Of a DNA stretch of 64,000 bases, positions 43,957 to 58,773 are shown in pieces; the first letter of the stretch is position 1; every line of letters starts with the position of its first letter. Made by a program: the position numbers and the translations under genes. The stretch covers positions 4,442,798-4,506,797 of the forward strand of contig NZ_KE386569.1 of NCBI RefSeq assembly GCF_000427625.1, given 5' to 3'. The notes under the pieces were generated by a model. It had not been told where the DNA came from. It saw only the letters and a program-made list of their open reading frames with translations, and made no database searches. This stretch comes from Methylobacter luteus IMV-B-3098. GTDB taxonomy: Bacteria; Pseudomonadota; Gammaproteobacteria; Methylococcales; Methylomonadaceae.

Positions 43957-45438
43957 ATGTTTGAAATTGCCGAGTTGGGTCATACCTTAAAGAAATCCGA
44001 TTATGATAAGCAAGTGCCTGATTTGAGAACGCGATTACTGACGGCTCAGCAGGAGATCCGGCAAACAGGTTTTCCTGTCGTTGTCCTTATATCGGGTGTT
44101 GACGGAGGCGGCAAAGGTGAGGTGATCAATTTGTTGAATGAATGGATGGACCCGCATTATATACAGACCAATGCATTCGATGAACCGAGTGATGAAGAGA
44201 AGGAGCGGCCTAAATTCTGGCGATTCTGGCGCACTTTGCCGGCTAAAGGCGCTATCGGCATTTATGCCGGTTCCTGGTACAGTGAGCCGTTATCGCGACA
44301 TGTTCATCATGAGATCAATGATGAACAACTGCAGATGGATCTCATGCATATCAAACAATTCGAGCAGATGCTGATCGATGATGGCGCTTTGATCATTAAA
44401 TGCTGGTTGCATCTTGGCCGGGAAGCACAGAAAAAGCGGCTGAAAAAACTCGAAAAAAATCCGGAAACCAGTTGGCGGGTAACCAGTCGCGATAAAAAGC
44501 ATCTGGAAATGTATGACGACTTTATCGACGTGGCTGAGAAGGTATTGTCCGAAACCAGCACCGGCGCATCGCCGTGGCTGATCATTGACGGTACGGATAG
44601 ACATTACAGACGCCTAGCGGTGGGCCGGCATGTGCTGGACAGAATCAGCCGACATATTGAGCAGAGAGACGCAGACAAAAGAGTTATCGAAAAAACAGCT
44701 GCTTCCGGCGTCATTAATGCGAGACATAATCCGCTGGATAAGCTCGACCTGTCGCTTAAACTGGATGAAAAAACTTACCATAATCAACTGAATTTTTACC
44801 AGGGCAAACTGAGCAAATTGGCAAGGCTGGCGCGCCAGAAAAAGCGCTCCAGCATATTAGTTTTCGAAGGTTGGGATGCCGGCGGGAAGGGCGGGGCCAT
44901 CAGGCGCTTGATTCATGCGCTTGATGCAAGAAATTATCGTGTGATTCCTGTTTTCGCACCCACAGATGAAGAACGCTCCCAGCATTACTTGTGGCGATTC
45001 TGGCGCCATATCCCGCGCGCAGGCAAAATCACTATTTACGATAGAAGCTGGTACGGGCGTGTGCTGGTTGAGCGTGTCGAAGGCTTTGCGGCGGAATATG
45101 AATGGGCGCGCGGTTTTTCAGAAATCGTTAATTTTGAGGAAGAATTGATGCGTGACGGCATTATCATCCTGAAATTCTGGCTGCATATTGATCAGGACGA
45201 GCAATTAAGACGATTTAGGGCTCGTGAACAGATCAGTTATAAACGATACAAAATAACCGAGGAAGATTACCGCAATCGCGAGAAATGGGCCGAGTATGAA
45301 TTGGCCGTTAATGAAATGATTACCCGGACCAGTACCCAGGCAGCACCTTGGGTATTGATTGAAGGCAATGATAAAAAATACGCCCGTATTAAAGCGTTGA
45401 AAAGTTATTGTGAGAAGCTGGAATCGGCTTTGGGCTGA
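43957..45438 (+). CDS. pap: polyphosphate:AMP phosphotransferase (two-domain PPK2)
   Basis: Class II PPK2 enzyme that phosphorylates AMP with polyphosphate to give ADP. At 493 aa it holds two tandem PPK2 domains, each with its own Walker A (GVDGGGKG near residue 47, GWDAGGKG near 307) and lid/Walker B motifs (WRFWRTLPAKGAIGIYAGSWY and WRFWRHIPRAGKITIYDRSWYGRV). The two-domain form is the class II type. GAAGGAAGG precedes the ATG. It is the last host gene before the integrated element. Confidence 0.9.
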   Translation: MFEIAELGHTLKKSDYDKQVPDLRTRLLTAQQEIRQTGFPVVVLISGVDGGGKGEVINLLNEWMDPHYIQTNAFDEPSDEEKERPKFWRFWRTLPAKGAIGIYAGSWYSEPLSRHVHHEINDEQLQMDLMHIKQFEQMLIDDGALIIKCWLHLGREAQKKRLKKLEKNPETSWRVTSRDKKHLEMYDDFIDVAEKVLSETSTGASPWLIIDGTDRHYRRLAVGRHVLDRISRHIEQRDADKRVIEKTAASGVINARHNPLDKLDLSLKLDEKTYHNQLNFYQGKLSKLARLARQKKRSSILVFEGWDAGGKGGAIRRLIHALDARNYRVIPVFAPTDEERSQHYLWRFWRHIPRAGKITIYDRSWYGRVLVERVEGFAAEYEWARGFSEIVNFEEELMRDGIIILKFWLHIDQDEQLRRFRAREQISYKRYKITEEDYRNREKWAEYELAVNEMITRTSTQAAPWVLIEGNDKKYARIKALKSYCEKLESALG

Positions 45439-45854
45439 AAGCTGTCTATTTTAAAATATGTTCACTGACGTTATGGTGCCAAATCGGACTATCTACATCT
45501 TTTTAATTTTGTCACAAAAATTCTATATCAGATGTCAGAAGTAAAGCTTGAGCCTCTTTTCTTTCATTGGGCCACAATTACCGCACAGGCTGATCAATTT
45601 TGGAAATTAATCGCTTCAGTCCAATAACCTTTTCATACCCAAGGCGGGCTAAATTTCAACAGGTTACTGATAAAAAATATGAAAAGCGGTTCATTGCTCA
45701 ATCCTGGCAAGGGTGCGTGCTCAATCATAATCGAGAGCGCGTCTAATTTAAGCAGTAAACTGGAAACGTTAAAAAAATAGGTCAAGATTTCCCTAATGCT
45801 GAACAGAAAACACCGAACTTCTCAAAACCAGCTAATCAGTATTTTTTAATGTTC
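45439..45854. other. intergenic region, no gene seen
   Basis: 416 bp between the PPK2 gene and the left boundary of the integrated element. AT-rich, no supportable ORF or terminator. Confidence 0.5.
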
Positions 45855-45871
45855 ATAAGTAGTCATACGAA
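45855..45871. repeat. left copy of 17-bp direct repeat, candidate attL core
   Basis: ATAAGTAGTCATACGAA, identical to 57374-57390. It is the outermost repeat around the element and lies outside the 22-bp nested repeat. Confidence 0.65.
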
Positions 45872-45976
45872 CACAAAAAACCACAATAAACCGCAGTAAC
45901 CAATAATAGATAAATCAATCACTTATAGTCTATTGCTTGTTGCTGAATATTGCTATTTATTGCCTGTTTTTATGGT

Positions 45977-45998
45977 CAAGTGCGACAAAATTGCGACA
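45977..45998. repeat. left copy of 22-bp inner repeat, candidate integrase arm site
   Basis: Begins CAAGTGCGACAAAATTG and is identical over 22 bp to 57269-57290. It contains two direct TGCGACA units. It lies inside the outer repeat at both ends, as arm-type integrase sites do. It could alternatively be the true attachment core. Confidence 0.55.
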
Positions 45999-46153
45999 AA
46001 AATATATAATAGAACCCTAGACACAAAGCGGGCCAGAAGGTGTTTCCAGCACCAACCAGCCCATGACCAAATACTTAATTAACCGGATTAAGCAATGGCT
46101 TCACTCATTATATCAAGTGCCTATTGCCTACCCTATAAATATAGAAGGCAAGC

Positions 46154-47221
46154 ATGGCTACTATCAAAGAACGCACATCAAAAGACGGAAGCATCCGTTA
46201 TACAGCCGAAGTTCGACTGAAAGGCTATCCGCGCCAAACGGCAACATTCAAACGAAAGACCGATGCAAAAAAATGGGTTCAGGACACAGAGTCAGCAATC
46301 CGCGAAGGCAGGCACTTTAAGACAGCCGCAGCAAAAAAGCATACGTTGGCTGAACTGGTGGACAGATACATTAATGAAGTATTGCCAAGCAAATCAAAGA
46401 GGCCCAGAGTTCAGAAGCAGCAGCTTGGGTGGTGGAAAGATAAGATTGGGGCGTATGTTCTAGCGGATATTACACCAGCGTTAATTGCCCAATGCCGTGA
46501 TGAACTAGGCGAAGGTATAACGCTAAGAGGGAAGCCGCGCGGCAATTCAACAAAAGTAAGATATATGGCCGTATTGTCTAGCGCATTTTCTCATGCCGTG
46601 AAGGAGTGGCAATGGCTAGAATCAAATCCTATGAAAAGCGTATCAAAGCCACCGGAGCCAAAAGGTAGAGTTCGATTTCTGGATGATGAAGAACGCGACA
46701 AGCTCTTGCAAGCCTGCAAGCAATCCAAAAACAAGCATCTATATATATGCGTCACGTTGGCACTGTCTACCGGAATGAGACAAGCCGAATTGATGAATTT
46801 GAAATGGTCTGACGTAAATCTTAAAGACCGCTATATCATCTTGCACGAAACCAAAAACGGAGACCGCCGCCGAGTTCCGTTGGCCGGTCATGCTTTAGAG
46901 TTGCTACTGAATCACGCCAAAGTAAGACGACTTGACACGCAGCTATTATTCCCGGGCAAGAAAAACAAAGACCAGCCTATCAACCTAAGGCCATCCTTTC
47001 AAAAAGCACTAAAAGCCGCAGGAATAAACAATTTCCGCTGGCATGATTTACGCCATTGCACAGCTTCCTATTTAGCCATGAACGGGGCGAGCTTGGCTGA
47101 AATAGCCGAGATTCTAGGACATAGAACTTTAAATATGGTTCGGCGCTATGCCCACCTATCAGACGGTCATGTAAGCTCAGTAATTGAGTCCATGAATACT
47201 AAAATCTTTGGGGGCGTGTGA
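46154..47221 (+). CDS. int: tyrosine recombinase (phage-type integrase)
   Basis: 355-aa integrase. The N-terminal arm-binding domain (ATIKERTSKDGSIRYTAEVRLKGYPRQTATFKRKTDAKKW) is followed by a SAM-like core-binding domain (about 64-160) and the catalytic domain with Arg209 (STGMRQAELM), HDLR (His297, Arg300), His323 (LGHRT) and nucleophile Tyr332. All catalytic residues are present, so it should be active. It reads into the element, about 280 bp from the left boundary. AAGGCAAGC precedes the ATG. Confidence 0.92.
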   Translation: MATIKERTSKDGSIRYTAEVRLKGYPRQTATFKRKTDAKKWVQDTESAIREGRHFKTAAAKKHTLAELVDRYINEVLPSKSKRPRVQKQQLGWWKDKIGAYVLADITPALIAQCRDELGEGITLRGKPRGNSTKVRYMAVLSSAFSHAVKEWQWLESNPMKSVSKPPEPKGRVRFLDDEERDKLLQACKQSKNKHLYICVTLALSTGMRQAELMNLKWSDVNLKDRYIILHETKNGDRRRVPLAGHALELLLNHAKVRRLDTQLLFPGKKNKDQPINLRPSFQKALKAAGINNFRWHDLRHCTASYLAMNGASLAEIAEILGHRTLNMVRRYAHLSDGHVSSVIESMNTKIFGGV

Positions 47222-47940
47222 TGGTTAATTTTTCAGGCTGGGCCGCACCAAAGACAATAGACTTTATTTCGCTGCACGAACTAATGGAGGAATTAGCCAG
47301 CTATACCGAACTGCAATATTCAAACAGTGAAGAAGCACGTTTTTCAGAAGCCGCCGATAATCTCTATCAAGCCTTAAGTAACTCAGCAAAACCCCCTAAA
47401 TGGGCAAAAATCAACAAAGAGCCATTTAAGCTAGAGAACGCGCTAAAGCCCAAAAAAGGCCCACTCAAGCCAATATTTTGTGACGACGTATCAATTGAAG
47501 GAATGGAAATGCTAAGACACATGGCGGGATGGCATGAAAGAAAAATATACGCCGATAACCTGTATATCAAGGAACAGAAAAGCGCCAGAGAACAAGGTAT
47601 AGATGAGTCATTAGTGCTTAGAAGCCACAACCCAAATGATGGAGCATATAAAGGAGCAGACTTCATTAGGTCTATGGAAATAGGATTTGACCGGCACGAG
47701 ATAGCTGCATTCTTGGGATGCCAGACGGACCCGGCAATTTGTAGAGACAGGGAACGGACAGAGCACGTTAAGGAATGGGTAAAGAGAACAGATTACAAGG
47801 GCGGGAAAGTAGATAAGGTTATAATAGCTGAGCTTCAAGAAGATAAGCCAGACTTATGGGGGAAAAACGATGCAGTTTTTAGAAAGTGGATTCAGCTACC
47901 AGAAGCTAAGCCGTTATTGCCAAATACAAGGCGGCGTTAA
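47221..47940 (+). CDS. element-borne protein of unknown function
   Basis: 239-aa soluble protein that I do not recognise. The ATG overlaps the integrase stop (TGATG), so it is co-translated with int; a GTG three bases earlier is an alternative start. It contains charged segments with Cys/His-poor composition (YTELQYSNSEEARFSEAADNLYQAL; ICRDRERTEHVKEWVKR). Coupling to int and the following terminator make it a likely cargo or control gene (immunity, defence or excision control are all possible). Confidence 0.6.
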   Translation: MVNFSGWAAPKTIDFISLHELMEELASYTELQYSNSEEARFSEAADNLYQALSNSAKPPKWAKINKEPFKLENALKPKKGPLKPIFCDDVSIEGMEMLRHMAGWHERKIYADNLYIKEQKSAREQGIDESLVLRSHNPNDGAYKGADFIRSMEIGFDRHEIAAFLGCQTDPAICRDRERTEHVKEWVKRTDYKGGKVDKVIIAELQEDKPDLWGKNDAVFRKWIQLPEAKPLLPNTRRR

Positions 47941-47946
47941 ATAGAG

Positions 47947-47969
47947 AAAGGGCGATAAGCCCTTTTTTT
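47947..47969 (+). terminator. terminator after the int operon
   Basis: AAAGGGC (47947-47953) and GCCCTTT (47959-47965), continuing as T7. Confidence 0.8.
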
Positions 47970-47996
47970 ATGCTTGCCGATAAATCAGAGCATTAG

Positions 47997-48039
47997 ATAT
48001 AGGAGATTTTCTTTATATAGGAAATCCTATATTTCCTAG
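47997..48039. promoter_or_regulatory. ATATAGGA operator array before the HTH gene
   Basis: ATATAGGA occurs at 47997-48004 and 48015-48022. The second copy forms a perfect palindrome with TCCTATAT at 48025-48032, and TTCCTAG follows at 48033-48039. The array lies about 80-125 bp before the excisionase-like gene and looks like a repressor or activator binding region of the early operon. Confidence 0.55.
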
Positions 48040-48120
48040 TTTTTTAATAAAATCAACTACTTATAATTTATCTCAACCGCTAGCAAAACAGCGGAACAAT
48101 TCAGAAACAAAAGGTAAATT

Positions 48121-48336
48121 ATGAGCACTCAAACATTATTATCATACTTAACAGTAAATCAATTTTCAGAAAAACACCCCGCTTTCACTCGCGGCGGGTT
48201 ACGCGCCTTAATCTTTAATGAAGCCCAAAACGGACTTGCTAAGGCTGGCGCGATCGTTCGTATTGGGCGAAAAGTCTTAATTGATGAAGGAAAGTTCTTT
48301 GGATGGGTTGCTGGTCAAAATCAAGGGGGTAAGTAA
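48121..48336 (+). CDS. small HTH protein, excisionase/AlpA-like
   Basis: 71-aa basic protein with a MerR/excisionase-type winged helix (YLTVNQFSEKHPAFTRGGLRALIFNE, then AIVRIGRKVLIDEGKFFGWV). Proteins of this type in satellites act as excisionase or as transcription activator (AlpA, Vis). It is first in the replication operon, preceded by AAAAGGT and an ATATAGGA operator array, and overlaps the next gene by one base (TAATG). Confidence 0.7.
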   Translation: MSTQTLLSYLTVNQFSEKHPAFTRGGLRALIFNEAQNGLAKAGAIVRIGRKVLIDEGKFFGWVAGQNQGGK

Positions 48337-48671
48337 TGATTACCCCAACATTACCCAGAATCGACACTCTTACAGCCCGCGCCCTAATGCGCCTTTTAAC
48401 AGGCCGTAAGTTCACACATAAAGAATTCCAGATTGAAACCGGCTCTTACCGGCTATCAGGTTATATCGAGCAACTACGGAACCGGCACCACTGGACAATT
48501 CAAACCAAGGAAGAGACAGCCCCAACAAGCGACCCCACCGGCAGGACGGCGACTTATGGCCGGTATTTAATCGAGTCTGAGATTTTGGCAGGCTTGAGGC
48601 AGGAATTAGGCGAGCGGTTAGACAAATTTATTGAAGCGGTTAAGCGCTTTGAAGGCAATCGGGGGGCATGA
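48336..48671 (+). CDS. small protein with possible HTH fold
   Basis: 111-aa protein (MITPTLPRIDTLTARALMRLLTGRKFTHKEFQ). The segment LMRLLTGRKFTHKEFQIETGSYRLSGYIEQLRNRHHWTI resembles a winged helix of the kind found in phage Orf1/HTH_36-like proteins; that is a resemblance only. Overlaps both neighbours by one to four bases, so it belongs to one operon with the primase. Confidence 0.55.
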   Translation: MITPTLPRIDTLTARALMRLLTGRKFTHKEFQIETGSYRLSGYIEQLRNRHHWTIQTKEETAPTSDPTGRTATYGRYLIESEILAGLRQELGERLDKFIEAVKRFEGNRGA

Positions 48672-48820
48672 TGGGGAACAGTAAACAGGCCGCCCGGTAC
48701 AGCAATACCAAGGCGGCCAATATCAAAAAACTGCAAAGCCATTTTACCGAAACTGTGCGACAGGTAAAGGCCGAATTTATCCGGTTATCCGTTTGGCTGG
48801 TAATCGTGAGGGGCGCATGA
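48668..48820 (+). CDS. 50-aa basic protein in the replication operon
   Basis: Starts MMGNSKQAARYSNTKAANIK and overlaps the previous gene (ATGA) and the primase (ATGA) by four bases each. It is Lys/Arg-rich with a hydrophobic C-terminus (RLSVWLVIVRGA). The perfect overlaps on both sides are the main support. It is too short to be assigned a family. Confidence 0.5.
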   Translation: MMGNSKQAARYSNTKAANIKKLQSHFTETVRQVKAEFIRLSVWLVIVRGA

Positions 48821-51171
48821 TGGCGACCTTACCCGATGCAATGAAAGCGGCGGGTTTCGACCCGCCTGACACTATCCCGCCCGGTAAGACTACCCGCTTT
48901 TCGACCAATGGAAAACGCTCTGATTTATCAGGATGGGTTCATTTATTTGCAGACGAACAAGGCGCGGCGTTTGGTTGCTGGCGGTCTGGTGAACACCACA
49001 CATGGCAAGCCCAACGAGATAAGCCGTTAAACGCGATCGAGCAAGCAGAGTTCAAACGTAAGATAAAAGCCGCACGGAAATCGGCACATCAAGAACGGGA
49101 ATCCGGCTATCAAGCAGCGGCGGCCAATGCTCGGGCGGAATGGGAACCGGCACCACCCGCGCCGGAATCGCACCCTTATTTAGTCAAAAAAGGCATTAAG
49201 CCGCACATGGCGCGCATTGATAGCAAAGGCTGGTTATTGATTCCCGTTTATAGCGCGGCTGGCACTATCCAAAGCCTGCAAAGAATCGCACCAGACGGCG
49301 CTAAACGCTTTATGACAGGCGGCAAAATGCGTCATGGTCATATATGGATTGGTGAGCCTAAAAACGCGCCTATATTGCTTCTAAGCGAAGGGTTCGCGAC
49401 CGCTTGCAGCTTACATCAGGCGACAGGTTATCCGGTCTGTGTGTGCTTTTCGGCAGGCAATTTAAAACCAGTGGCGGAAATGGTCAGAAAAAGCGCGTTT
49501 ACATCATCAGCCCGGCTTTTAATCTGCGGTGATGATGACACCCAGACCGAAGGCAACCCCGGGCGCACCAAGGCCACCGAAGCAGCGCAGGCCGTAGCCG
49601 CTGGCGTGGTGTTTCCGGTATCGGCTGGGGATTTTAACGACATGGCGCAGGATGAAGGATTAGAAGCGGTACAGGCGCATATTGAGCAAGCCCTAGAAGA
49701 ATCAAAGGTTGTTCCGGTTGAGCTCTCTATCCCGTCATTATCTGGCATGGATGCCAGAGACGGAACGCACAACACGCGCCCATTATCCGAGCTTGGTAAT
49801 GCTATGCGGCTGATGGATGCTTATAGTGAAAATATCCGTTATACCCATGATGCCAAAGCATGGGTGCATTGGCGGGATGGCGCGTGGATATGGGACTTAG
49901 ACGGGGCAATAACTAAAGGGTTGGCGGCTAAGCTACCGGCCCAGATATATAACGAAGGCGCGCTTCATTTAGCCGAGTCTGAATATTTCTACAAATGGTC
50001 ACGCACCAGCCAGAAGCAACGCACCATTGAAGCGGCTGTATCGCTACTCAGTAATGAAGAACGTATAAGGCTATCTATTAGCATGATGGATGCCGACCTA
50101 TTCAAAATTGGTTTTGATAATGCGCGAATGGTGATTGACCTGAAAACAGGCGAAGCACGACCAGCGCAACAGTCCGACTTAATCACCAAGTCAGTGAATG
50201 TGGCAAGGCTGGGCGATTCCTCAAAGGCTGAGCAATGGACTAAGTTTATCAGCCAGCTATTTAACGATGACGCCGAGTTAATAAGCTGGTTTAAACGCTG
50301 GTGCGGCTATCTTCTAACAGGCTCTACAAGTGAACAAATCTTTGTTTTTTGCTATGGCTTGGGAAGCAACGGTAAAGGCATATTATCCGAGACTATACGC
50401 TATCTCATGGGCGATTATGCCAGAGCCGCCGATGTAGACACATTCACGGAAGGAAAGCGGCAAGCAGGCGCTGCCAGTCCTGATATGGCTGATTTAATCG
50501 GGGCTAGACTGGCTATCACGACAGAAACCGAGGATGGTGTAGCGTTCTCAGAATCGAAAGTAAAAGCCATTACCGGACAGGACACCATTACTACAAGGAA
50601 ACTGCATCAAAACCCCGTACAGTTCACACCACAATTTAAGCTGATGATGAGCGGCAACCATAAGCCCATCATTAAGGGCAATGATTACGGAATCTGGCGG
50701 CGAGTGATGCTAATACCCTTTACGCGCCAGTTCAAAGGCAAGGACAAAGACCCGAATCTATTAAACAAACTCAGAACCGAATCAGAACACATTTTAGCCT
50801 GGATGGTTGAAGGGTGTCTTGAATGGCAAAAGCGCGGCTTATCCGATGTGCCAAAGGTTATAAAGGATGCCACCGGAGAATATCAGCAGGAACAGGACAT
50901 TACTGGCAGATGGATTGAAGAATGTTGCGAGCTTTCACCAAGTCATGAGACATCATCAGCCGATATGTATATCTGCTACAAAAACTGGTGCATCAGTAAC
51001 GGGTTAAGACCCAATAGCAATATAGCATTAGGGCGCAGGCTTGCGGAGCGCGGCCTTTATTGCCGCCAATCAAACGGAAAAAGGCTATGGTTTGGCATAG
51101 GCGTAAAAGAGTCACCAAGTGTAAATGACTCAACTTATGCTGATTCATATAGAGCAACTAAAGGTTGGTAA
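48817..51171 (+). CDS. P4-alpha-type DNA primase/helicase (TOPRIM plus SF3/D5)
   Basis: 784-aa replication protein. The N-terminal part (1-100) resembles the zinc-type primase region, a TOPRIM domain follows (SEGFATA near 190, GDDD near 238), and the C-terminal half is an SF3/D5-type helicase with Walker A GLGSNGKGI at about 514-522 and LAITTETE, then a winged C-terminal domain (ADMYICYKNWC). In P4-like elements this single protein melts the origin and primes DNA synthesis. ATG 48817 overlaps the previous stop; an earlier TTG in frame is less likely. Candidate origin repeats lie directly downstream. Confidence 0.88.
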   Translation: MMATLPDAMKAAGFDPPDTIPPGKTTRFSTNGKRSDLSGWVHLFADEQGAAFGCWRSGEHHTWQAQRDKPLNAIEQAEFKRKIKAARKSAHQERESGYQAAAANARAEWEPAPPAPESHPYLVKKGIKPHMARIDSKGWLLIPVYSAAGTIQSLQRIAPDGAKRFMTGGKMRHGHIWIGEPKNAPILLLSEGFATACSLHQATGYPVCVCFSAGNLKPVAEMVRKSAFTSSARLLICGDDDTQTEGNPGRTKATEAAQAVAAGVVFPVSAGDFNDMAQDEGLEAVQAHIEQALEESKVVPVELSIPSLSGMDARDGTHNTRPLSELGNAMRLMDAYSENIRYTHDAKAWVHWRDGAWIWDLDGAITKGLAAKLPAQIYNEGALHLAESEYFYKWSRTSQKQRTIEAAVSLLSNEERIRLSISMMDADLFKIGFDNARMVIDLKTGEARPAQQSDLITKSVNVARLGDSSKAEQWTKFISQLFNDDAELISWFKRWCGYLLTGSTSEQIFVFCYGLGSNGKGILSETIRYLMGDYARAADVDTFTEGKRQAGAASPDMADLIGARLAITTETEDGVAFSESKVKAITGQDTITTRKLHQNPVQFTPQFKLMMSGNHKPIIKGNDYGIWRRVMLIPFTRQFKGKDKDPNLLNKLRTESEHILAWMVEGCLEWQKRGLSDVPKVIKDATGEYQQEQDITGRWIEECCELSPSHETSSADMYICYKNWCISNGLRPNSNIALGRRLAERGLYCRQSNGKRLWFGIGVKESPSVNDSTYADSYRATKGW

Positions 51172-51172
51172 A

Positions 51173-51273
51173 AGTGCGGATAGTGCGGATTTTTAGAGTT
51201 TTTCCTTTTTCCTCCATACAAACTTTATATGGGGGACTTTTGAAAAATGACATTTATCCGCACTATCCGCACT
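51173..51273. repeat. 18-bp inverted repeat of double AGTGCGGAT units, candidate origin iterons
   Basis: 51173-51190 holds AGTGCGGAT twice in tandem; 51256-51273 is its perfect inverse complement. The 65-bp spacer is AT-rich. The four 9-bp units immediately follow the primase gene, the place where P4 carries cis replication sequences. Confidence 0.6.
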
Positions 51274-51318
51274 GAAATATAAATCTTAATCAATCACAAC
51301 TAAGCACAACATTAATTT

Positions 51319-51564
51319 ATGAAAACAGACTTAAAGTCAAAACGGAACATTGGCGAATGGATTACTAAAAGATGCAGTATTAAGAACAAGAGCGCCGAAA
51401 CACGGCTATGTAATCTATATGGTGATTATTTTGAATGGTGTCTTGCTAAATCCGATAGGTTTATGACCAGGGGGAATTTTAATAAAACTCTTTTAAGGAT
51501 GGGGTTCAAGACAAGACGAGAAAAAACGGCGCGCCTTTTGTTGGGCATATCTCTAAATGACTAA
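51319..51564 (+). CDS. stand-alone primase C-terminal-like domain protein
   Basis: 81-aa basic protein. Its middle (SAETRLCNLYGDYFEWCLAK, then FMTRGNFNKTLLRMGFKTRREKTARLLLGISL) aligns by eye with the C-terminal part of the primase gene (SADMYICYKNWCISNG, then NSNIALGRRLAERGLYCRQ, RLWFGIGV), so it looks like a separate copy of the D5-associated winged domain. It may modulate replication as a DNA-binding factor. The start has no strong ribosome site. Confidence 0.6.
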   Translation: MKTDLKSKRNIGEWITKRCSIKNKSAETRLCNLYGDYFEWCLAKSDRFMTRGNFNKTLLRMGFKTRREKTARLLLGISLND

Positions 51565-51574
51565 AGGAAAACAA

Positions 51575-51907
51575 ATGACAGAGAAAACTATTCAATTCCC
51601 AATAAACCAATATTCCCACCTTCCTTTGGTGAGACAACTGGAAGAAAGAGCCATTAGAACGGCAATAGTGACCGGCTACCTATCCAGCAGAGCAGGAGTA
51701 ACGCAGGAAGCGGCACTAATCGACCTTATAAACAATGATGACGACCTGACTTATAAAGACACCAACGAGCAGACGCTGAGAGATTATATAGCAGCAGGCT
51801 TTAGTCTCTACCAAGAAAGACCAGAATTAACCGGACATGAGGCTTTTCACCTGTCCAAAAACCACTATGAAGCGATGATTAAACGCACACCAAAGGCTAA
51901 TAAATGA
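51575..51907 (+). CDS. element-borne protein of unknown function
   Basis: 110-aa acidic protein starting MTEKTIQFPINQYSHLPLVR. AAAGGA lies five to six bases before this ATG; a frame start at 51557 overlaps the previous gene and is less likely. Overlaps the tape-measure gene by four bases (ATGA). Polar, with probable helices; no motif I can name. Position suggests a tape-measure-associated role such as chaperone or assembly factor. Confidence 0.5.
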   Translation: MTEKTIQFPINQYSHLPLVRQLEERAIRTAIVTGYLSSRAGVTQEAALIDLINNDDDLTYKDTNEQTLRDYIAAGFSLYQERPELTGHEAFHLSKNHYEAMIKRTPKANK

Positions 51908-53814
51908 ACGTAATAGACACCTTAATAGTAACTCTCGGATTGGACGCAACCGAGTTCAAAAAAGGCACACAGGAAGCTAACAAAGCGCAAACAGCCTTTA
52001 TCAATCAATCCAGAAGCCAAGGCAATGAACTTGAAGCTATCGACAAAAAGAACGCCGAAGCACAGAAAGCCAGATTTAGAGAAATTGAATCGCAATCAAA
52101 AATAATTGCTCAAGGTTTCGCCAAAATAAGAAATCAGGCATTGTCTATGCTGGCCGTGTTTACGGCTGGCAAGGGGCTATCTAACTTTACATCAGACACC
52201 ATTCAATCATCAGCGGAACTTGACCGGCTATCTGAGAATTTAGGCATTGGTGCAGAGAGACTTAACGGTTACGCATTGGCGGCAAAGAACGCAGGCGGCA
52301 CAGCTCAGGGAATGTTTGAGTTGTTACAGCGACAGTCTAAAGCGGCGGCCGATTTTAAAATGGGGATGCCGAACGAGGACATTAACGCTTTTTTTCAATG
52401 GGGCGGAAGATATGGTGCAAAAGCTGACGACTTCAAAGACGCTGAAACTCTACTATTAGCAAAGGCTGATATATTGCATGAGGCCATGATGAAGCAAGGC
52501 GAACAGGAAGCCTTAGCGATTGCCGATAGAATGGGCATAAATCGAGAGCAATACAACCTATTAAAAATGGGTTCAGTTGCTCTAAAGGAAAAACGCGACG
52601 GATACGCCAAACTGACCGGACTTACCAAAGAACAGACCGAGGAATTAGGCAAGCTCGCGGAAAAATGGAACAACTTAAGCGCGTCATTTGAAGGCACGGG
52701 TAAGATTATTCTATCCAAGCTTGAGCCACAGATTGAAAGTTTAATAGATAACTTAATGGAGTTTTCAAACTGGCTTAGGTCTGATGATGTTGAGAACTGG
52801 TTTTCTGATGCCGTTAAGGAAGTAGACAGCTTTTTAACCAAAATAGAAGAATTGCTTAATGTTCCTGATAAGTTCGGCGCAATGGTCAATGAAGTGTTTG
52901 AGTCTGGCGCGCCGGACGTTGTTAAAGATGCCGCTAACGCTGTTACTGATGCGGTAGGCATGGACGGAGAGACTAAGCACGACAAAGCACACGCGCACAT
53001 GAGCCTAAAGGATGCGGCCTGGAATTATCGCGGCGGTGAAATCATGGGCTTAAATGACCACCAGACACGGGCGCTGGCCGCTGAAACGATGAAGCATGAA
53101 TCAAGCGGCGGCGACCTGAGAGCAGAGAACAAATACGGCTACATCGGGAAATATCAATTTGGCGCGGATGCCCTGGCCGATGCCGGTCTAGTGGACTTGG
53201 AAAAACTGAAAGCGGCTAAAAAGGAAGCGGGCAAAGGCTGGTTTAAAGGCGGGCAGGCTAAGTTCTTACACAACAATGAAAACTGGACGACTGAGGGCGG
53301 TTTTGAAGGCTTTATGCGGTCTGGTGAACTCCAAGACAGGGCTTTTGCTAAAAACGCCAATATGAACATTCAGACCGGCGTCAAATCGGGCGCATTGAAA
53401 GCAAGCAGTTCACCGGAGGACATATCAGGCTTTGTCATGGCGGCGCATTTAAAAGGGGCTGGCGCGGCTATCAACCTTTATAAAAATGGCAAGGATAGTT
53501 CGGATGCCAACGGAACAAAGGCGAGCCAGTACGCGCAATATGGGCGCGATATTGTTTCTCTATTTGCCGGACAGCCACAGCAACAGAGCGCGGCTATCCA
53601 ATCACCGGCAAGACAGGCCATTAATGCTAAACATGAATCGACCACCAACAGCACTGTGAACAGTCACAACAGCAATGTGACTTCTGAAACGAATATACAA
53701 AACGTGAATATCCAGACAGCCGCAACAGACCCGGCAGGAATAGCAAAAGAGATCGTTCCAGAGATACAGCGTCAAACACTGGTATTTAATGCTGCATCAG
53801 GTATGCGGCAGTAA
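51904..53814 (+). CDS. phage tail tape-measure-like protein with muramidase-type domain
   Basis: 636 aa. The N-terminus IDTLIVTLGLDATEFKKGTQEANKAQTAFI is that of lambda-like tape-measure proteins, followed by long helices (50-330) with a hydrophobic patch near 80. Residues about 385-500 (ALAAETMKHESSGGD, NKYGYIGKYQFGADALADAG) look like a lysozyme/transglycosylase domain with a Glu in HESS. The C-terminal NIQTAATDPAGIAKEI is also typical of tape-measure proteins. This protein sets tail length and opens the peptidoglycan during injection. It is the only structural gene in the element, which is unusual. Confidence 0.7.
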   Translation: MNVIDTLIVTLGLDATEFKKGTQEANKAQTAFINQSRSQGNELEAIDKKNAEAQKARFREIESQSKIIAQGFAKIRNQALSMLAVFTAGKGLSNFTSDTIQSSAELDRLSENLGIGAERLNGYALAAKNAGGTAQGMFELLQRQSKAAADFKMGMPNEDINAFFQWGGRYGAKADDFKDAETLLLAKADILHEAMMKQGEQEALAIADRMGINREQYNLLKMGSVALKEKRDGYAKLTGLTKEQTEELGKLAEKWNNLSASFEGTGKIILSKLEPQIESLIDNLMEFSNWLRSDDVENWFSDAVKEVDSFLTKIEELLNVPDKFGAMVNEVFESGAPDVVKDAANAVTDAVGMDGETKHDKAHAHMSLKDAAWNYRGGEIMGLNDHQTRALAAETMKHESSGGDLRAENKYGYIGKYQFGADALADAGLVDLEKLKAAKKEAGKGWFKGGQAKFLHNNENWTTEGGFEGFMRSGELQDRAFAKNANMNIQTGVKSGALKASSSPEDISGFVMAAHLKGAGAAINLYKNGKDSSDANGTKASQYAQYGRDIVSLFAGQPQQQSAAIQSPARQAINAKHESTTNSTVNSHNSNVTSETNIQNVNIQTAATDPAGIAKEIVPEIQRQTLVFNAASGMRQ

Positions 53815-53819
53815 TGGAA

Positions 53820-53892
53820 CTGTCTCAATAAAAGACAGATGAGACAAAGCCTGCAATGGGTTTTGTCTCACTTCCCTATGTGAACCGAGACA
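53820..53892. promoter_or_regulatory. alternating TGTCTC/GAGACA repeats
   Basis: TGTCTC at 53821-53826 and 53874-53879, GAGACA at 53841-53846 and 53887-53892. They pair into stems CTGTCT/AGACAG and GAGACAAA/TTTGTCTC. They end eight bases before the likely start of the next small gene. Confidence 0.45.
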
Positions 53893-53900
53893 ATTCAATA

Positions 53901-54107
53901 ATGTTTAATCATTCCTCATGGCATTTAGCCAAAGTCCTAAACCTAGACCATAGAGAACTGCGTCTATTTATTGACGAACTCAAAGACAAGCTCAATAACA
54001 ACCGGTTTGAGCAGAATTTTGAACGGTTGATATTTAAAAACGTGCTTACCTACTACATCATAACGGATGACGGGCTTGAGATATTGCTTAAAGCTTTAGC
54101 CGAATAG
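53901..54107 (+). CDS. small protein of unknown function (possible regulator)
   Basis: 68 aa from ATG 53901 (MFNHSSWHLAKVLNLDHRELR); a frame start at 53856 would add 15 residues but would run through the repeats. The helical segment HLAKVLNLDHRELRLFIDELKDKL and the ending YIITDDGLEILLKALA look like a phage regulator or antirepressor tail, a resemblance only. It follows the tape-measure gene on the same strand. Confidence 0.5.
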   Translation: MFNHSSWHLAKVLNLDHRELRLFIDELKDKLNNNRFEQNFERLIFKNVLTYYIITDDGLEILLKALAE

Positions 54108-54174
54108 CATAACAATCTGGCGCGGTTCTGATTCAACAGGCCGCGCATTTTGCGCGGTGGTCAGTTTAATTAAT

Positions 54175-54738
54175 TTACATCTGCGTAGTAAGAACAGTAA
54201 CAGCCTTCATAGTATTTAAATTATAAACACATAACGTCTTTGTCTTGACCTTTGCCCCGTATATATTTTCATACATTGCCACATCATCAATGACAGTAAC
54301 CTCCTTTTTATCTCCAGAAAAATCTTCTGGAATATAAGAGGAAAAATTAGGAGAAAAGAATCCTCCCCAATCAATTGATTGAGTATGCTTTTCCTCGGAC
54401 GCCATTTTACAGGCAACTTGAATTTGTATTGCCATCTCTTTATTTTCGTTAATAAGATCGCTTGTTGTTTTGCATAATTTCCAATCAGTTGCACAGGAGA
54501 GTTTAACAGGCTCTTTTGGCGCTGGTTCCGTTGTTACTGCTTGGGTTACTACTGGCTCCTTATGGTATTTTGTCTCATTATCATTAGTCGCAAAATAAAA
54601 GACAACAAATCCTCCAAACAAGATAAAGCCCATCGACTCAATAAAAGAATATCTTTTTGGCATCTTAATACCGCATGACGGGCATTTATCGGCTTTATCG
54701 CTGACTTGGTGTCCGCATTCCTTGCATGTAATTAGCAT
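54175..54738 (-). CDS. zinc-ribbon membrane protein, probable cargo
   Basis: 187-aa protein on the opposite strand to the rest of the element. It starts MLITCKECGHQVSDKADKCPSCG, a zinc ribbon (two CxxC pairs), then one membrane span (SMGFILFGGFVVFYFA, about 30-47) and a periplasmic or cytosolic C-terminal domain of about 130 residues with a few Cys. The upstream frame extends to 54801 but the ribbon start at 54738 fits the family. Zinc-ribbon plus span proteins are common small bacterial and phage proteins. Opposite orientation and isolation suggest an accessory gene such as a host-modifying or defence function. Confidence 0.65.
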   Translation of the reverse strand: MLITCKECGHQVSDKADKCPSCGIKMPKRYSFIESMGFILFGGFVVFYFATNDNETKYHKEPVVTQAVTTEPAPKEPVKLSCATDWKLCKTTSDLINENKEMAIQIQVACKMASEEKHTQSIDWGGFFSPNFSSYIPEDFSGDKKEVTVIDDVAMYENIYGAKVKTKTLCVYNLNTMKAVTVLTTQM

Positions 54739-54902
54739 TGTGTTTTCTCTTATTATTTTTGTTGAAAAACAAATATATCTCAAACAGGAACTTCGCACCA
54801 TTACTCGAAATGGTTATCTGAGAACTCGTTTTTGAACATATCCGGGAATATCGACATGACCATCTAGGATTTCAGCGCGCATTGCCACACTTTGAAAGCG
54901 TT

Positions 54903-55058
54903 ATGATGCGTCAAAAAGAAACAGCTATTTTATGCAGAATCGGGATTGCTCAAGGCATTGAGCTTCGGATAGAAGCAAAAGAAACACCAAAAGAAACAGA
55001 TTCTCAAACGGTATTTTCTCTCAAATTGAGTAAAAATCGTTACCCTGTCAGAGCGTAA
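54903..55058 (+). CDS. putative 51-aa protein
   Basis: Starts MMRQKETAILCRIGIAQGIE and runs to a TAA at 55056-55058 (end LSKNRYPVRA). It is divergent from the zinc-ribbon gene. Only a weak GAAAG lies upstream. Composition is protein-like (Lys/Glu-rich with alternating hydrophobics), but support is limited. Confidence 0.3.
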   Translation: MMRQKETAILCRIGIAQGIELRIEAKETPKETDSQTVFSLKLSKNRYPVRA

Positions 55059-55100
55059 CGGAAAAATTCCGATTCTAAAAGGTACGGAATCGCACCCTTT

Positions 55101-55141
55101 AATAGCAGGAATTCCTGCTATTTAATTGCTGGATATCCAGC
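55101..55141. repeat. two adjacent perfect palindromes (22 bp and 14 bp)
   Basis: A 22-bp palindrome with core AGCAGGAATTCCTGCT at 55101-55122 and GCTGGATATCCAGC at 55128-55141. Imperfect relatives of the first (GCAGGAAATTCTGC, GCAGGAAATCCTGC) recur at 57071-57084 and 57208-57221 near the right end. Confidence 0.6.
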
Positions 55142-55142
55142 T

Positions 55143-55440
55143 AAAAAGCCGAATATTTCTAAACGATTGTGAGCGCCATCATGAGCGCCAAGGTCAAGAA
55201 AGGACACGGTTTAGGGGCTTATTGTGAGCAGGAGTATCGAAACGGCAGCCTAATGATTCTCAACAGTTCATTCTAGTATTGGCGCGGCTTTGACGCCCAT
55301 TTTCAACAGAATAACGCAACAGAATAGCCGAATGATTGTGAACGCTTGGTTCTAGGATTGGCGCGCTCTGTAATGCCATTATGGACGCGAATAAAGCAAC
55401 AGAAAAAGCCGAGCATGGTTCGCGGCAGAACTAAGTCCGT
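55143..55440. repeat. degenerate tandem repeats, about 80-bp period
   Basis: Units beginning AGCC recur at 55247, 55326 and 55407 (periods 79 and 81). Shared blocks include AATGATT, TTCTAG, ATTGGCGCG, GCCATT-like and GCAACAGAA. An earlier, weaker unit starts near 55145. The periods are not multiples of three and no frame is open, so this is not coding. Confidence 0.55.
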
Positions 55441-55639
55441 ATGCGGCATAGGATTCGATTTCAGGCGGTTTTAGTGCGTAGCTTAGTACGCAAGTATTCC
55501 GCTCAATCCGATGAACCGCAGCATATCAGAATTGATTTATTGCCCCAATATCCTGATTTTGTTAAATTTCCTGATATTATCGGCGCAAGCTCTACCCCTG
55601 CACTATTGACCGTTTTACTTTTGGCGACTATGCTTATAT

Positions 55640-55790
55640 TGCACTGTACAAACAGTGTCGGGCGTGAGAACCCGTTTATATAGGCAGCACAGCGCCTTAC
55701 ATGGCGTTTTTTTGTGTCCGCAGTTTTGTGGGCATATCCGTTTTATTGTCCATTCTGTTATGACTGGCTTGCTTGGGACAGCTCCGGCTG
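55640..55790 (+). ncRNA. candidate C4/CI-like antisense immunity RNA region
   Basis: A structured noncoding segment: hairpin CACTG/CAGTG (55642-55657), CGGG/CCCG (55659-55674), then CGCC/GGCG followed by T7 (55693-55713), then TGTCCGCAGTTTTGTGGGCA. This order and the last motif resemble what I remember of the region around the P4 CI RNA and P1 C4 RNA, upstream of the ash/icd-type frame. The ORFs crossing it are probably not translated. No covariance search was possible. Confidence 0.4.
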
Positions 55791-55879
55791 GATCGCTCTA
55801 TATAACGATTTCTCACACCCATTTAAGCCAGTCGCCAAAGTTGGCGGCGTTATTCAACCCAAGAACAAGAAGAACCGCT

Positions 55880-56173
55880 ATGAATACAGAGACAAAATTA
55901 AACCCAAACTTTAGCCACCGTCTAGCTGGCCTGGATGAAGAAGCAACGCCGCTTAATTTATCAGACTCTATTGATACATTGGCGTTACAGGCCGATAGCA
56001 TGCTGGCATTGATTAGCGATCAATTTGTTAATGACGATGACGAGCCGGTAAAAATGTCTGACGAAATTATGTATTGGTCTTTAGAGTCAGTGAGGCAGAT
56101 GGTTAAGGATATGCGGTGCATTGTTGACGCATATCACGAAGCAAACAGACAGGCAGCAAGGGAAAACGTATGA
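55880..56173 (+). CDS. small acidic protein of unknown function
   Basis: 97 aa starting MNTETKLNPNFSHRLAGLDE, acidic and helical, with the C-terminus EANRQAARENV. An AAGAAG site precedes the ATG. Longer frames begin upstream at 55655, but they run through the structured RNA and lack protein-like composition. The gene overlaps the next by four bases (ATGA). Such Asp/Glu-rich small proteins are common downstream of C4-type RNAs in satellites; no function can be named. Confidence 0.6.
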   Translation: MNTETKLNPNFSHRLAGLDEEATPLNLSDSIDTLALQADSMLALISDQFVNDDDEPVKMSDEIMYWSLESVRQMVKDMRCIVDAYHEANRQAARENV

Positions 56174-56409
56174 TTGCCGATATTAGTCCGAAACGCGAAC
56201 GAGAGTTTTCAGCCTTATGGAATGAAGGCAGATTTGAAAGAATTCATAGCATTACCTTTGAGGGCTATTGCGTTTTAAGCCGGTTACTTGAGAAATGCGA
56301 ATCAACTGAGGATGCAAAACTGATTGAGTGGGCTTTGCCAGCAATCAAAGCCGAACTTACCGATATGAATACCTTTAGGGCAGCAAAGACAGCAGGCGCG
56401 GAAGCATAA
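56170..56409 (+). CDS. small protein of unknown function
   Basis: 79 aa (MIADISPKREREFSALWNEGRFERIHSITFEGYC), overlapping the previous gene by ATGA and followed by a terminator after about 30 bp. Mixed charge, probably helical; a single Cys pair is present in SRLLEKCEST and EGYC. The tight coupling suggests that the two small proteins act together. Confidence 0.6.
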   Translation: MIADISPKREREFSALWNEGRFERIHSITFEGYCVLSRLLEKCESTEDAKLIEWALPAIKAELTDMNTFRAAKTAGAEA

Positions 56410-56438
56410 CACTAAAGAGCAATAATCCTTCATCAATC

Positions 56439-56465
56439 AAGGCTGGCTAATCACCGGCCTTTTTT
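56439..56465 (+). terminator. terminator after the two-gene unit
   Basis: AAGGCTGG pairs (with a bulge) with CCGGCCTT and is followed by T6. Confidence 0.65.
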
Positions 56466-56516
56466 GTTTCTGGATGCGGAAAAACTCCGCTACTAATTCC
56501 CCGATTCGGGGTAATT

Positions 56517-56543
56517 AAAAGGACGACATACCGACCTTTTTAC
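56517..56543. repeat. hairpin repeat AAAAGGACGACATACCGACC, copy 1
   Basis: AAAAGG and CCTTTTT enclose ACGACATACCGA. A near-identical unit occurs at 56889-56914. They flank the small zinc-ribbon gene 56645-56851. Confidence 0.5.
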
Positions 56544-56644
56544 CCCAATGGGGGAATATTAAATTTTAGCCGGGGTATTAATGCAAAATCCCATGATTCC
56601 GGTTAATATCAGCCAATAGGATAAACAGTATAAACAGGACATTT

Positions 56645-56851
56645 ATGGCCGAACAAAGAAAATCAGGATACTGCAAAAATTGCAAAAAAGACGTGATCGT
56701 ATTCAGGCCCGGAACAAATCACATACTGCATTTGCTGATTAGTATTGTAACCATGGGCGTATGGTTGATTCCGTGGTTTCTCCATTCAATAAAAATAGGC
56801 GGCTGGCGATGTCAAACTTGTGGTTCAAAATCAGTAAACAGTATTAAGTAA
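56645..56851 (+). CDS. zinc-ribbon single-span small protein
   Basis: 68 aa (MAEQRKSGYCKNCKKDVIVF) with CKNC before and CQTC after one or two hydrophobic segments (HLLISIVTMGVWLIPWFLHSI). The two CxxC pairs bracket the membrane part, so they can form one zinc ribbon on one face of the membrane. This small family is frequent in phage and host genomes. The gene is isolated between two copies of the same hairpin. Confidence 0.65.
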   Translation: MAEQRKSGYCKNCKKDVIVFRPGTNHILHLLISIVTMGVWLIPWFLHSIKIGGWRCQTCGSKSVNSIK

Positions 56852-57268
56852 TCCCGGCATATTTCACTACCATGGCAGAGGGTAGCTAAAAGGACGGCAT
56901 ATCGCCCTTTTACGACCTAAGCAATACTTAGCCCCAATTCCGATAAAAGGGGCTAATTCCCACCTTTAGCCGACGCAATATTGCATTGGCCTCACAAGTC
57001 TGGAATCTATTTAAATCGCTACGAGATTCACGGCACAGTATCGGGCCGCCATTGGCGGATGGATTCAACAGCAGGAAATTCTGCATAAATGTAGAGTTTA
57101 GTAGCCGCGCCAGACAGAGCGGTATTTTTGCGTTTCCGAAAAATCGGTAGCGGCAAGGATGCACTAACTCGATGCCGCCTTTAGAGATTCCCACCATTGG
57201 TGGATAGCAGGAAATCCTGCCATTAATCAATGCCCGATAAATCGGCAACAAGTGCGGCATTTTTTTAG
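56852..57268. other. right-end region of the element with palindromes, no confident gene
   Basis: Contains the second AAAAGGAC hairpin (56889-56914), CCGCCATTGGCGG near 57049, GCAGGAAATTCTGC (57071-57084), CCACC-ATT-GGTGG (57192-57204) and GCAGGAAATCCTGC (57208-57221). A minus-strand frame of 185 codons crosses it but also runs across the att repeat, and its composition reflects the palindromes. Confidence 0.5.
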
Positions 57269-57290
57269 CAAGTGCGACAAAATTGCGACA
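57269..57290. repeat. right copy of the 22-bp inner repeat (arm site)
   Basis: Identical over 22 bp to 45977-45998, inside the outer repeat; see left copy for motif. An imperfect third partial match (CAAGTGCGGCA) lies just upstream at 57249. Confidence 0.55.
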
Positions 57291-57373
57291 TTTTCTGCAA
57301 TAAGAAACTGAAGCACATAGTAAGCTATTGATTATATTTATACTATTTACTAAATGACTAATTAAATTGTCGG

Positions 57374-57390
57374 ATAAGTAGTCATACGAA
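57374..57390. repeat. right copy of the 17-bp direct repeat, candidate attR core
   Basis: ATAAGTAGTCATACGAA, identical to 45855-45871. Host sequence resumes after it, 134 bp before the lipoprotein gene. Confidence 0.65.
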
Positions 57391-57524
57391 TTTTCTCCTG
57401 CTCTATTCTGAGTATAAATGATTGCATCTATGTCATGAATTGAGGGAAAACTCATGGAATGATGTTCAGCATTTCCTTCCTTCATCTGGAAATTTTTCTA
57501 AGCATGAATTTAAGGAGAATATTA

Positions 57525-57914
57525 ATGACACATGAATATCAACCATTTAACCCATCCAAGCCCTTGCTACTGCTGTCTGCTATGTTCCTGCTGGGCGGTT
57601 GCGAAGGTAATCCCCCTGTCGACAAAATCTCCGCCGCGGAACATGCCTTTAATCAGGCCAATGTAGACGGCGGCGATAGGTATGCTCCGTTAGAGATGCG
57701 AATCGCCCATGAGAAACTGGATCAGGCCAGGGCGGCAATGTTCGAAGAGCATTACGAAAAAGCCGCGGCACTGGCCGATGAAGCGATGATTAGCGCCAAT
57801 CTGGCTGCCGCAAAAATTGATTCTGCAACATCCACGAAGAAACTGGAAGAGTTAAAGAAAAGCATCGGCTCATTACGCCAAGAAATAGGGACTCAGCAAC
57901 AGATGCAAAGATAA
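57525..57914 (+). CDS. DUF4398-type lipoprotein
   Basis: 129 aa starting at ATG 57525, with AAGGAG seven to eight bases before it; the frame opens earlier at 57459 without a site. The signal peptide ends in a lipobox (FLLGGC, Cys26), so it is a lipoprotein. The mature part is a helical repeat of the DUF4398 kind (APLEMRIAHEKLDQARAAMFEEHYEKAAALADEAMISANLA), of unknown function but often next to OmpA lipoproteins, as here. First gene to the right of the integrated element. Confidence 0.7.
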   Translation: MTHEYQPFNPSKPLLLLSAMFLLGGCEGNPPVDKISAAEHAFNQANVDGGDRYAPLEMRIAHEKLDQARAAMFEEHYEKAAALADEAMISANLAAAKIDSATSTKKLEELKKSIGSLRQEIGTQQQMQR

Positions 57915-57987
57915 AATGAAGGTAAATAAACAATCAGGCGGCTGTTCTTGAGCGTTAGGTAGTTAACCTTGATTAAGGAGTAACACT

Positions 57988-58773
57988 ATGTCAACTAAAA
58001 AGTGGAATGCGGCTTCAGTTTATTGCAAGGCAGGAATTCTAATAGGGAGTGTATTAATGCTGGCGGGGTGTGCCTCAGAGCCGCATAGGGGATTAGAGGA
58101 AGCAAGGCAGAATCTGAACCAGATCAAACAGGACCCGAAAATTGCCAGTAATGCGCCTGTGGCCTTGTACGATGCCGAGCAGGCTCTCAATAGGGCCCAT
58201 GATGCCTGGGAAGATGACGACGATGAAGAATATGTTGATCATTTGGTTTACATGGCAAATCAGAATATAAAAATTGCCGAGGCAAATGCCCAGGAAAAGA
58301 TAAGCCATGATGAGTTTGAAAGGTTAAGCGATAAAAGTAAGCAAATGCAACTGGACGCCAGAAAAAAAGAGCTTGAGGAGTTAAGGGCACGGCAAACCGA
58401 TCGCGGCATGATGGTCACTATGGGGGATGTGCTGTTTCAGACAGGCAGGGCCGATCTCAAGCCGGGTGCGTTGCAGAACCTTTACCGGTTGGCATCCTTT
58501 TTGAAAGAAAATCCCAAGCGCAATATCATGGTTGAAGGGCATACGGACAGTGTCGGTTCAAGCCAGAGCAATCAGCTTCTGTCTGAAAGGCGTGCCCACT
58601 CCGTGGCAAACTTTCTCATTTCCAACGGCGTGGACAGTTCGCGTGTAACCGATGTCGGTTATGGCGAAGAGTATCCTGTCGACACCAACAGCACCGCAGC
58701 CGGACGTGCAAATAACCGGCGGGTGGAAGTCACTATCTTGAACGAAGGCGAACAGTCCAGGCTGAGACGTTGA
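57988..58773 (+). CDS. OmpA-family lipoprotein with N-terminal DUF4398
   Basis: 261 aa. Signal peptide with lipobox LMLAGC (about Cys28), a helical DUF4398-like part (residues 30-125: NLNQIKQDPKIASNAPVALYDAEQALNRAHDAWEDDDDEEYVDHLVYMANQ) and a C-terminal OmpA domain (about 145-255) with the peptidoglycan-binding motif VEGHTDSVGSSQSNQLLSERRAHSV and NNRRVEV. It should tether the outer membrane to the cell wall. AAGGAG precedes the ATG. It follows the smaller DUF4398 lipoprotein by 73 bp, likely in one operon. Confidence 0.85.
   Translation: MSTKKWNAASVYCKAGILIGSVLMLAGCASEPHRGLEEARQNLNQIKQDPKIASNAPVALYDAEQALNRAHDAWEDDDDEEYVDHLVYMANQNIKIAEANAQEKISHDEFERLSDKSKQMQLDARKKELEELRARQTDRGMMVTMGDVLFQTGRADLKPGALQNLYRLASFLKENPKRNIMVEGHTDSVGSSQSNQLLSERRAHSVANFLISNGVDSSRVTDVGYGEEYPVDTNSTAAGRANNRRVEVTILNEGEQSRLRR

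Follow-up and report, generated by a model that had tools for sequence, protein, structure and literature searches.

An intact tape-measure protein gene as the only recognised phage-particle gene in a PICMI-like element of Methylobacter luteus

An integrated 11.5-kb element of Methylobacter luteus IMV-B-3098 encodes what is, judging from its sequence, an intact tape-measure protein (TMP) of the Popoffvirus/BcepNY3 type, the type of small contractile-tailed phages, and the TMP gene appears to be the only recognised phage-particle gene in the element. The element occupies positions 45855–57390 of the stretch of DNA analysed here (64,000 nucleotides of the 4.5-Mb contig NZ_KE386569.1; hereafter, the window), and the TMP gene lies at 51904–53814 on the forward strand. 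The reading that we favour, with a probability of roughly 0.58, is that the element is an integrated PICMI-like phage satellite whose TMP joins tails otherwise built by a helper phage.

The element is bounded by a direct 17-bp repeat, ATAAGTAGTCATACGAA; when the pair of end regions was randomised 500 times, common words reached at most 14, never 17. Its features are listed below (positions in the window; strand; description and basis).

45855..45871, +, attL core ATAAGTAGTCATACGAA; exact 17-bp repeat of 57374–57390
45977..45998, +, 22-bp direct repeat, possibly an integrase arm site; exact copy at 57269–57290
46154..47221, +, tyrosine integrase; PF00589, E 8.6e-35; phrog_1
47218..47940, +, 240-aa gene in the place of PICMI iolg, with a 4-nt overlap with int; coordinates and bases, no profile match
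48121..48336, +, 71-aa putative regulator at the alpA position; homologues 35–77% identical in 11 of 20 primase loci
48336..48671, +, orf111, winged-helix-like; PF22324, E 0.001, below cut-off; 40–76% homologues in 7 of 20 primase loci
48668..48820, +, 50-aa ORF, uncertain; ORF list only
48793..51171, +, P4-family primase/D5 helicase; TIGR01613, E 5e-79; PF08706, PF13362, PF19263
51319..51564, +, orf81, free-standing end of a second primase/helicase; phrog_1883 positions 680–748 of 756, E 5e-7
51557..51907, +, orf116, sharing 4 nt with the TMP gene; no match among phages up to E 1; single-sequence model, pLDDT 53
51904..53814, +, TMP gene, 636 aa; ORF, PHROGs, tblastn, TMP profile, AlphaFold model, single comparisons
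51904..52842, +, TMP N-terminal region, aa 1–313; 37–39% identity to phage-contig TMPs L122, L124, L126 and L131
53014..53553, +, lysozyme-like domain, about aa 371–550; model; 38–51% identity to tail-type proteins L014–L018
53602..53805, +, TMP C-terminal tail, about aa 567–634; 32–36% identity to the ends of TMPs L122, L124, L126 and L131
53856..54107, +, orf83; no significant match
54175..54801, −, zinc-ribbon protein; PF13240, E 4.5e-5, just under cut-off; phrog_38187, E 1.6e-10
55880..56173, +, orf97; weak homologues in L022, L033, L259 and L266
56170..56409, +, orf79; ORF list
56645..56851, +, orf68; ORF list, no NCBIfam match
57269..57290, +, second copy of the 22-bp repeat; matches 45977–45998
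57374..57390, +, attR core; one-mismatch copy in sister species (L213, L214) before the same OmpA-like gene

Homology to the right side of the window begins in two sister species (G053 and G029) at 57371–57373, at the core, and each has a single copy of the core, differing at one position, ahead of the OmpA-like gene that follows it in the window. The left flanking gene lies about 1.1 kb off in G029, with one other gene between; in G053 it is separated from the core by about 12 kb of intervening genes, some of which look transposase-like. In another genome (G074), the core is conserved at 14 of 17 positions, and the left gene did not turn up in the stretch extracted. Since the ~400 bp left of the attL core has no counterpart in either sister species, the vacant site is supported by the core and right flank only. 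The element is flanked by a polyphosphate-kinase-like gene and the OmpA-like gene, both named by inspection, and these flanks look like host genes. A specific attachment site, as present here, belongs to the features of Gram-negative PICIs listed in an excerpt of PMC6092414. No Rfam match was obtained for 45000–58500, promoter-like sites were at chance level, and terminator-like sites numbered 21, compared with 12.3 (sd 4.2) for shuffled sequence. In its right part, which is poor in genes, the element also contains two 40-nt copies, 79 nt apart and 80% identical (55247–55365).

With respect to gene content, a PHROGs scan of 10 of the 14 element ORFs (orf50, orf97, orf79 and orf68 lying outside it) returned the integrase, primase/helicase and TMP, several unknowns, and matches to a 'moron' (0.036) and a 'virion structural' family (0.096). 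The 71-aa protein does not match the AlpA profile; among its 13 homologues there are weak DUF6462 matches in 9 and HTH_17 matches in 2, with a best E of 0.049. The gene orf116 overlaps orf81 by 8 nt, and the start of the TMP gene overlaps the end of orf116 by 4 nt. The orf81 product resembles only the last ~70 residues of P4-type primases, which suggests recombination of an orf81–orf116–TMP block into the place beside the primase, perhaps from an element in which the block likewise followed a primase. One weak match to orf116 (17% identity, E 2e-4) was found in another int-bearing region, which is without a TMP. As a candidate tail assembly chaperone (TAC), orf116 found no support, having no TAC-profile, phage or NCBIfam match and a poor model.

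The identification of the TMP is based on several lines of comparison. The frame 51904–53814 is uninterrupted over 636 codons. In PHROGs, residues 2–324 match phrog_2013 'lytic tail protein' (E 3e-29), the N-terminal part also matches TMP families (phrog_2276, E 2e-20; phrog_9570, E 1e-16; and phrog_8125), and aa 213–583 match phrog_27932 'baseplate hub and tail lysozyme' (E 5e-20). A tblastn search matched Aeromonas phage 56 gp69 (E 6e-15), annotated as tail length tape measure protein and encoded after a sheath, a virion structural protein and a tail assembly chaperone, as well as a hypothetical protein at the corresponding position of Pseudomonas phage Orisa01, where some of the neighbouring genes are annotated as BcepNY3-like; both proteins share the N-terminal region and C-terminal tail of the satellite TMP. 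Compared singly with four phage-contig TMPs (L122, L124, L126 and L131), residues 2–313 are 37–39% identical, and the C-terminal end is 32–36% identical within aa 552–635, with E-values for the tail of 2e-6 to 0.004 computed in a set of 4 proteins. Pfam gave no match above cut-off. Because TMP homology is present at both the N- and C-terminal ends, identification as a plain muramidase, which would have undone the sequence-only reading, was rejected.

The AlphaFold model, built with a 59-row alignment, has a mean pLDDT of 76 and a pTM of 0.42, with well-modelled blocks at residues 111–240 (pLDDT 84–97) and 371–550 (pLDDT 91–98, all 10-residue blocks at least 91), followed by a C-terminal hairpin and helix (pLDDT about 81). 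A fold search against viral models returned 50 matches at E 0.001, many of them tail tape measures or tail lysozymes; no PDB structure was matched at E 0.001 or less, with phiKZ gp144 (E 0.25) ranking first. The part of the earlier claim that concerned a 636-aa TMP with a lysozyme-like domain is upheld by PHROGs, tblastn and the model together. Within this domain, E399 is invariant in all 7 rows of alignment A1 and is a candidate catalytic residue. The domain is 38–51% identical to that of the L014–L018 tail-type proteins from five other genomes of the bacterial family, and 50–53% identical to several viral-contig proteins.

A scan of viral contigs with a five-row alignment yielded 390 TMP relatives, of which 80 were kept, several as near-duplicates. 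No relative was confirmed in scans that used the TMP or the primase on its own; alignment queries did yield relatives. All 80 kept loci contain another Popoffvirus-type structural gene and 78 contain a tail gene, as counted with profiles trained on those loci themselves; the two loci without a tail gene are short contigs. The related phage TMPs are 429–733 aa long, with a median of 611 (72 proteins, one 157-aa fragment being counted in the median and left out of the range). A hydrolase domain exceeded the Pfam cut-off in all nine family TMPs chosen (8 Phage_lysozyme2, 1 glucosaminidase), and was not found above cut-off in a tenth protein scanned, L042, a relative of the lysozyme part only; furthermore, Phage_lysozyme2 was matched in 25 of the 59 members of mixed alignment A4. 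Hydrolase domains are, by these matches, normal for this TMP family. The window's lysozyme-domain profile matched none of the 72 Popoffvirus-type phage-contig TMPs at E 0.01, and its domain is, by this comparison, of a different sequence family from the hydrolase domains of the related phage TMPs. As a separate observation, a 33.7-kb Methylobacterium plasmid (L032, NZ_CP155002.1) carries, among many hypothetical genes, an unannotated 867-aa ORF related to the TMP.

Phage TMPs of the Popoffvirus type sit in a tail cluster, whereas neither sheath, tube nor chaperone was detected in the window by Popoffvirus-type profiles. When 13 other Popoffvirus-type head and tail profiles were compared with window ORFs of at least 40 aa, the best match was only E 0.029. 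The TMP profile matched ORF 51904–53814 at E 2.5e-103 among the same ORFs, a value that is partly circular, as the training loci were found with an alignment including the window protein; the PHROGs and tblastn evidence is not circular. The Popoffvirus-type TAC and hub profiles had no match in these ORFs, an unrelated TAC, e.g. orf116, being conceivable. The large terminase family phrog_2 was unmatched in the window. These results agree with the earlier description of an 11.5-kb element having an integrase and primase-helicase and no other structural gene. Nor were flanking capsid or tail genes, which would have told against that description, found in the window, which covers 46 kb to the left of the element and 6.6 kb to its right; a flanking prophage was accordingly rejected, the rest of the window having no detected structural gene.

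Nor was a resident helper phage found. The sheath profile was negative in four of four genomes of the genus, including the window's own, in a search whose control was weak, as both positive genomes had themselves contributed sequences to the profile. In the window's own genome (G000), phrog_2 gave three weak matches (best E 3.9e-6), all outside the window, and this family is also matched in 11 of 14 control genomes. Another genome, G162 (7% contamination), contains regions that encode portal, neck, sheath and baseplate proteins of Popoffvirus type, and phages with such tails may infect the bacterial family.

Relatives of the element were traced by the primase, for which 137 of the 237 family genomes gave matches, many of them partial. 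Among the 20 best primase loci besides the window's own (L253–L272), integrase, 71-aa gene and primase occur together in 11, a 4-nt int-overlapping gene in 11, and both in 9. Small elements of this kind, with an integrase, an overlapping gene, a small regulator and a primase, and with a variable slot to the right of the primase, are thus frequent in the family. At E 0.001, none of the 20 loci contained the TMP, the lysozyme-like domain or Popoffvirus-type structural genes, with at least 2.8 kb to the right of the primase covered in 18 loci and under 600 bases in two. The same TMP gene, for which the earlier note had proposed a search beside int and primase in related elements, was thus not met with in these 20 loci, and no close copy of the TMP was found. 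The TMP occupies the variable slot and is accessory in this element group; as it is absent from all 20 related loci, it is not needed for the life cycle of the element family. In two loci (L262:3278–3676 and L264:11005–11406), a small gene right of the primase has a GNPKGRP/GNPNGRP-like motif and resembles, by eye, small near-terminase phage genes.

A different tail-type protein, with an 'SDSQGFL' N-terminus and the same lysozyme-like domain, is found in L014–L018, L033, L034, L058, L067, L290 and L291. Several elements of this group have int and replication genes, and some have terminase-like and PmgG-like genes. L014–L018 and their flanks contained no Popoffvirus-type structural gene in the profile search; PHROGs were applied to part of their ORFs, those scanned including the terminase-like and PmgG-like genes. 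In a 70-kb phage contig (L294), an 'SDSQGFL' relative lies between portal/tube-like genes and baseplate genes. The L015 element resembles the window element in its integrase (53%) and its 71-aa gene at the alpA position (56%) and differs in its replication genes; its tail-type protein has the same lysozyme-like domain (51%) and a different N-terminus, relatives of which occur in viral contigs, many of them 60–79 kb long. Elements of this integrase lineage may thus have acquired a second tail-type gene.

PICMIs, as far as described in the excerpts of PMC10803314, have the gene order int-iolg-alpA-up1-prim-up2, with a gene overlapping int by 1, 4 or 13 nt in 21 of 35 subfamilies. The window element shares int, a 4-nt overlapping gene, a small putative regulator, one or two genes, a primase and a variable slot; int and prim correspond, and the 71-aa gene stands in the alpA place with the AlpA profile unmatched. 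However, the window element is not at fis, is outside Vibrio, and measures 11.5 kb versus a PICMI average of 6.7 kb in the same excerpts. Because complete PICMIs are found there only in Vibrio and integration at fis is their hallmark (PMC10803314, in part), the element is called PICMI-like rather than a PICMI. The words 'tape measure' are absent from the PICMI paper (PMC10803314).

The sequence-only reading had envisaged a new kind of piracy, a claim that is overtaken by PLE satellites of Vibrio cholerae, which build chimeric tails with their own TMP (PMC12987554, 2026). Indeed, PLE11 virions contain the PLE TMP and lack that of ICP1, and in PLE11 the ICP1 hub protein is likewise replaced. The tails of PLE satellite virions are shorter by about 10 nm, and deleting tmp lowers PLE transfer by 96% to about 99.9% (PMC12987554). 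Like PLE, the window element has its own TMP without a full tail set, its satellite status here being deduced from its genes; PLE11 adds a chaperone (TAC) and a hub protein (BhuB), whereas only the TMP is recognised in the window element. No Vibrio phage was among the 49 phage records matched by the window TMP. The novelty would lie in a PICMI-like satellite whose sole recognised structural gene encodes a muramidase-type TMP; no PICMI-like TMP carrier was found in the one open-access library searched, which does not cover bioRxiv. The cf-PICIs are non-PLE satellites that, in the part of the literature seen, resemble the window element in having a putative tmp. They make their own capsids, as their name states, whereas no capsid gene was detected in the window element. 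Putative tmp genes are also reported in other Vibrio satellites and, according to the legend of Extended Data Fig. 10, in cf-PICIs (PMC12987554, in part).

Under the favoured reading, a contractile-tailed helper phage with a tail of the Popoffvirus/BcepNY3 type would infect the cell, and the satellite would excise and replicate. Its TMP would then enter tails whose tube, sheath, chaperone and baseplate would be the helper's, with the TMP N-terminal region and C-terminal tail fitting the helper's tail machinery. Hydrolase domains in phage TMPs are usually credited with cutting the cell wall at DNA entry, and the lysozyme-like domain would do the same here. The gain would be particles having the satellite's own TMP, e.g. 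one escaping TMP-directed defences. Consistent with this reading are the homology at both ends in the right order, the occurrence of related TMPs beside other structural genes in all 80 kept viral loci, the hydrolase domains normal for the TMP family, the intact gene, the 4-nt overlap, a core common to related elements, the PLE precedent, and the L015 element of the same integrase lineage with a tail-type gene. Against it stands the absence of the TMP from all 20 primase relatives; nor was a resident helper, a chaperone or hub partner, or an AlpA match recognised, and the vacant site lacks comparative support on its left. Of the earlier interpretation as a whole, the orphan TMP in an element is retained and the novelty of the piracy is not; an altered tail length finds no support in the sequence, 636 aa falling inside the 429–733 aa range (median 611) of related phage TMPs, and neither does an altered host range, no fibre or receptor-binding gene having been recognised.

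Unlikely, yet to be weighed seriously, is that the TMP, perhaps together with orf116, is a decoy or blocker that spoils tail assembly in phages whose tails are of this type, serving as a defence beside the primase. In PICMI115, a defence gene (up2) occupies the slot to the right of prim (PMC10803314, in part), Tai tail-assembly inhibitors adjoin pri in PICIs and Tab and Rta act on TMPs in the portions of the literature consulted, and the TMP is accessory in this element group. However, TMPs are the targets of Tab and Rta, which those portions do not themselves describe as TMPs; PADLOC found no defence gene among ten ORFs at E 0.01; and the TMP keeps its full length, its hydrolase domain and the conserved sequence at either end. 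A TMP so complete is easier to explain as a usable part than as a poison. A similarly low probability is assigned to captured cargo—that is, a TMP gene acquired by recombination and kept by chance with no present role—in line with its absence from the 20 primase relatives, the lack of partner genes, and the likeness of orf81 to another primase's end, which points to recombination on the left side of the cassette, but at odds with the 636 open codons, the 4-nt overlap with the preceding gene, the motifs kept at both TMP ends, and the lack of any other detected tail remnant.

Two further accounts are highly improbable. A stand-alone cell-wall hydrolase, acting in lysis or entry and not as a TMP, would accord with the C-terminal lysozyme-like domain and the weak fold match to phiKZ gp144 (E 0.25), but leaves unexplained the TMP homology of residues 2–313 and about 567–634 and the PHROG tail families (E 3e-29). 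A decayed full prophage would account for a TMP of myophage type; however, the element ends in direct repeats, two sister species have a single core with one mismatch, the genes on either side look like host genes, and the core order is common to related elements, with no other structural gene detected. Distinctly doubtful is that satellites swap tail parts as freely as defence genes, the orf81–orf116–TMP cassette in the slot having come from another satellite, with orf116 disabling the helper's TMP and the satellite's muramidase TMP substituting for it; PLE11 does likewise with separate rta and tmp genes, whereas blocking and substitution would here share one operon.

Overall, a large group of PICMI-like elements is indicated in the methanotroph family, versus complete PICMIs known only from Vibrio (PMC10803314, in part). 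In the literature found, tail takeover by satellites has been demonstrated only in PLEs. If the favoured reading is true, a satellite of another build would carry a lone intact TMP of another phage type, and tail parts would be traded among satellites. With one recognised structural gene, the element would also represent a minimal case of how a satellite makes helper tails use a foreign ruler.
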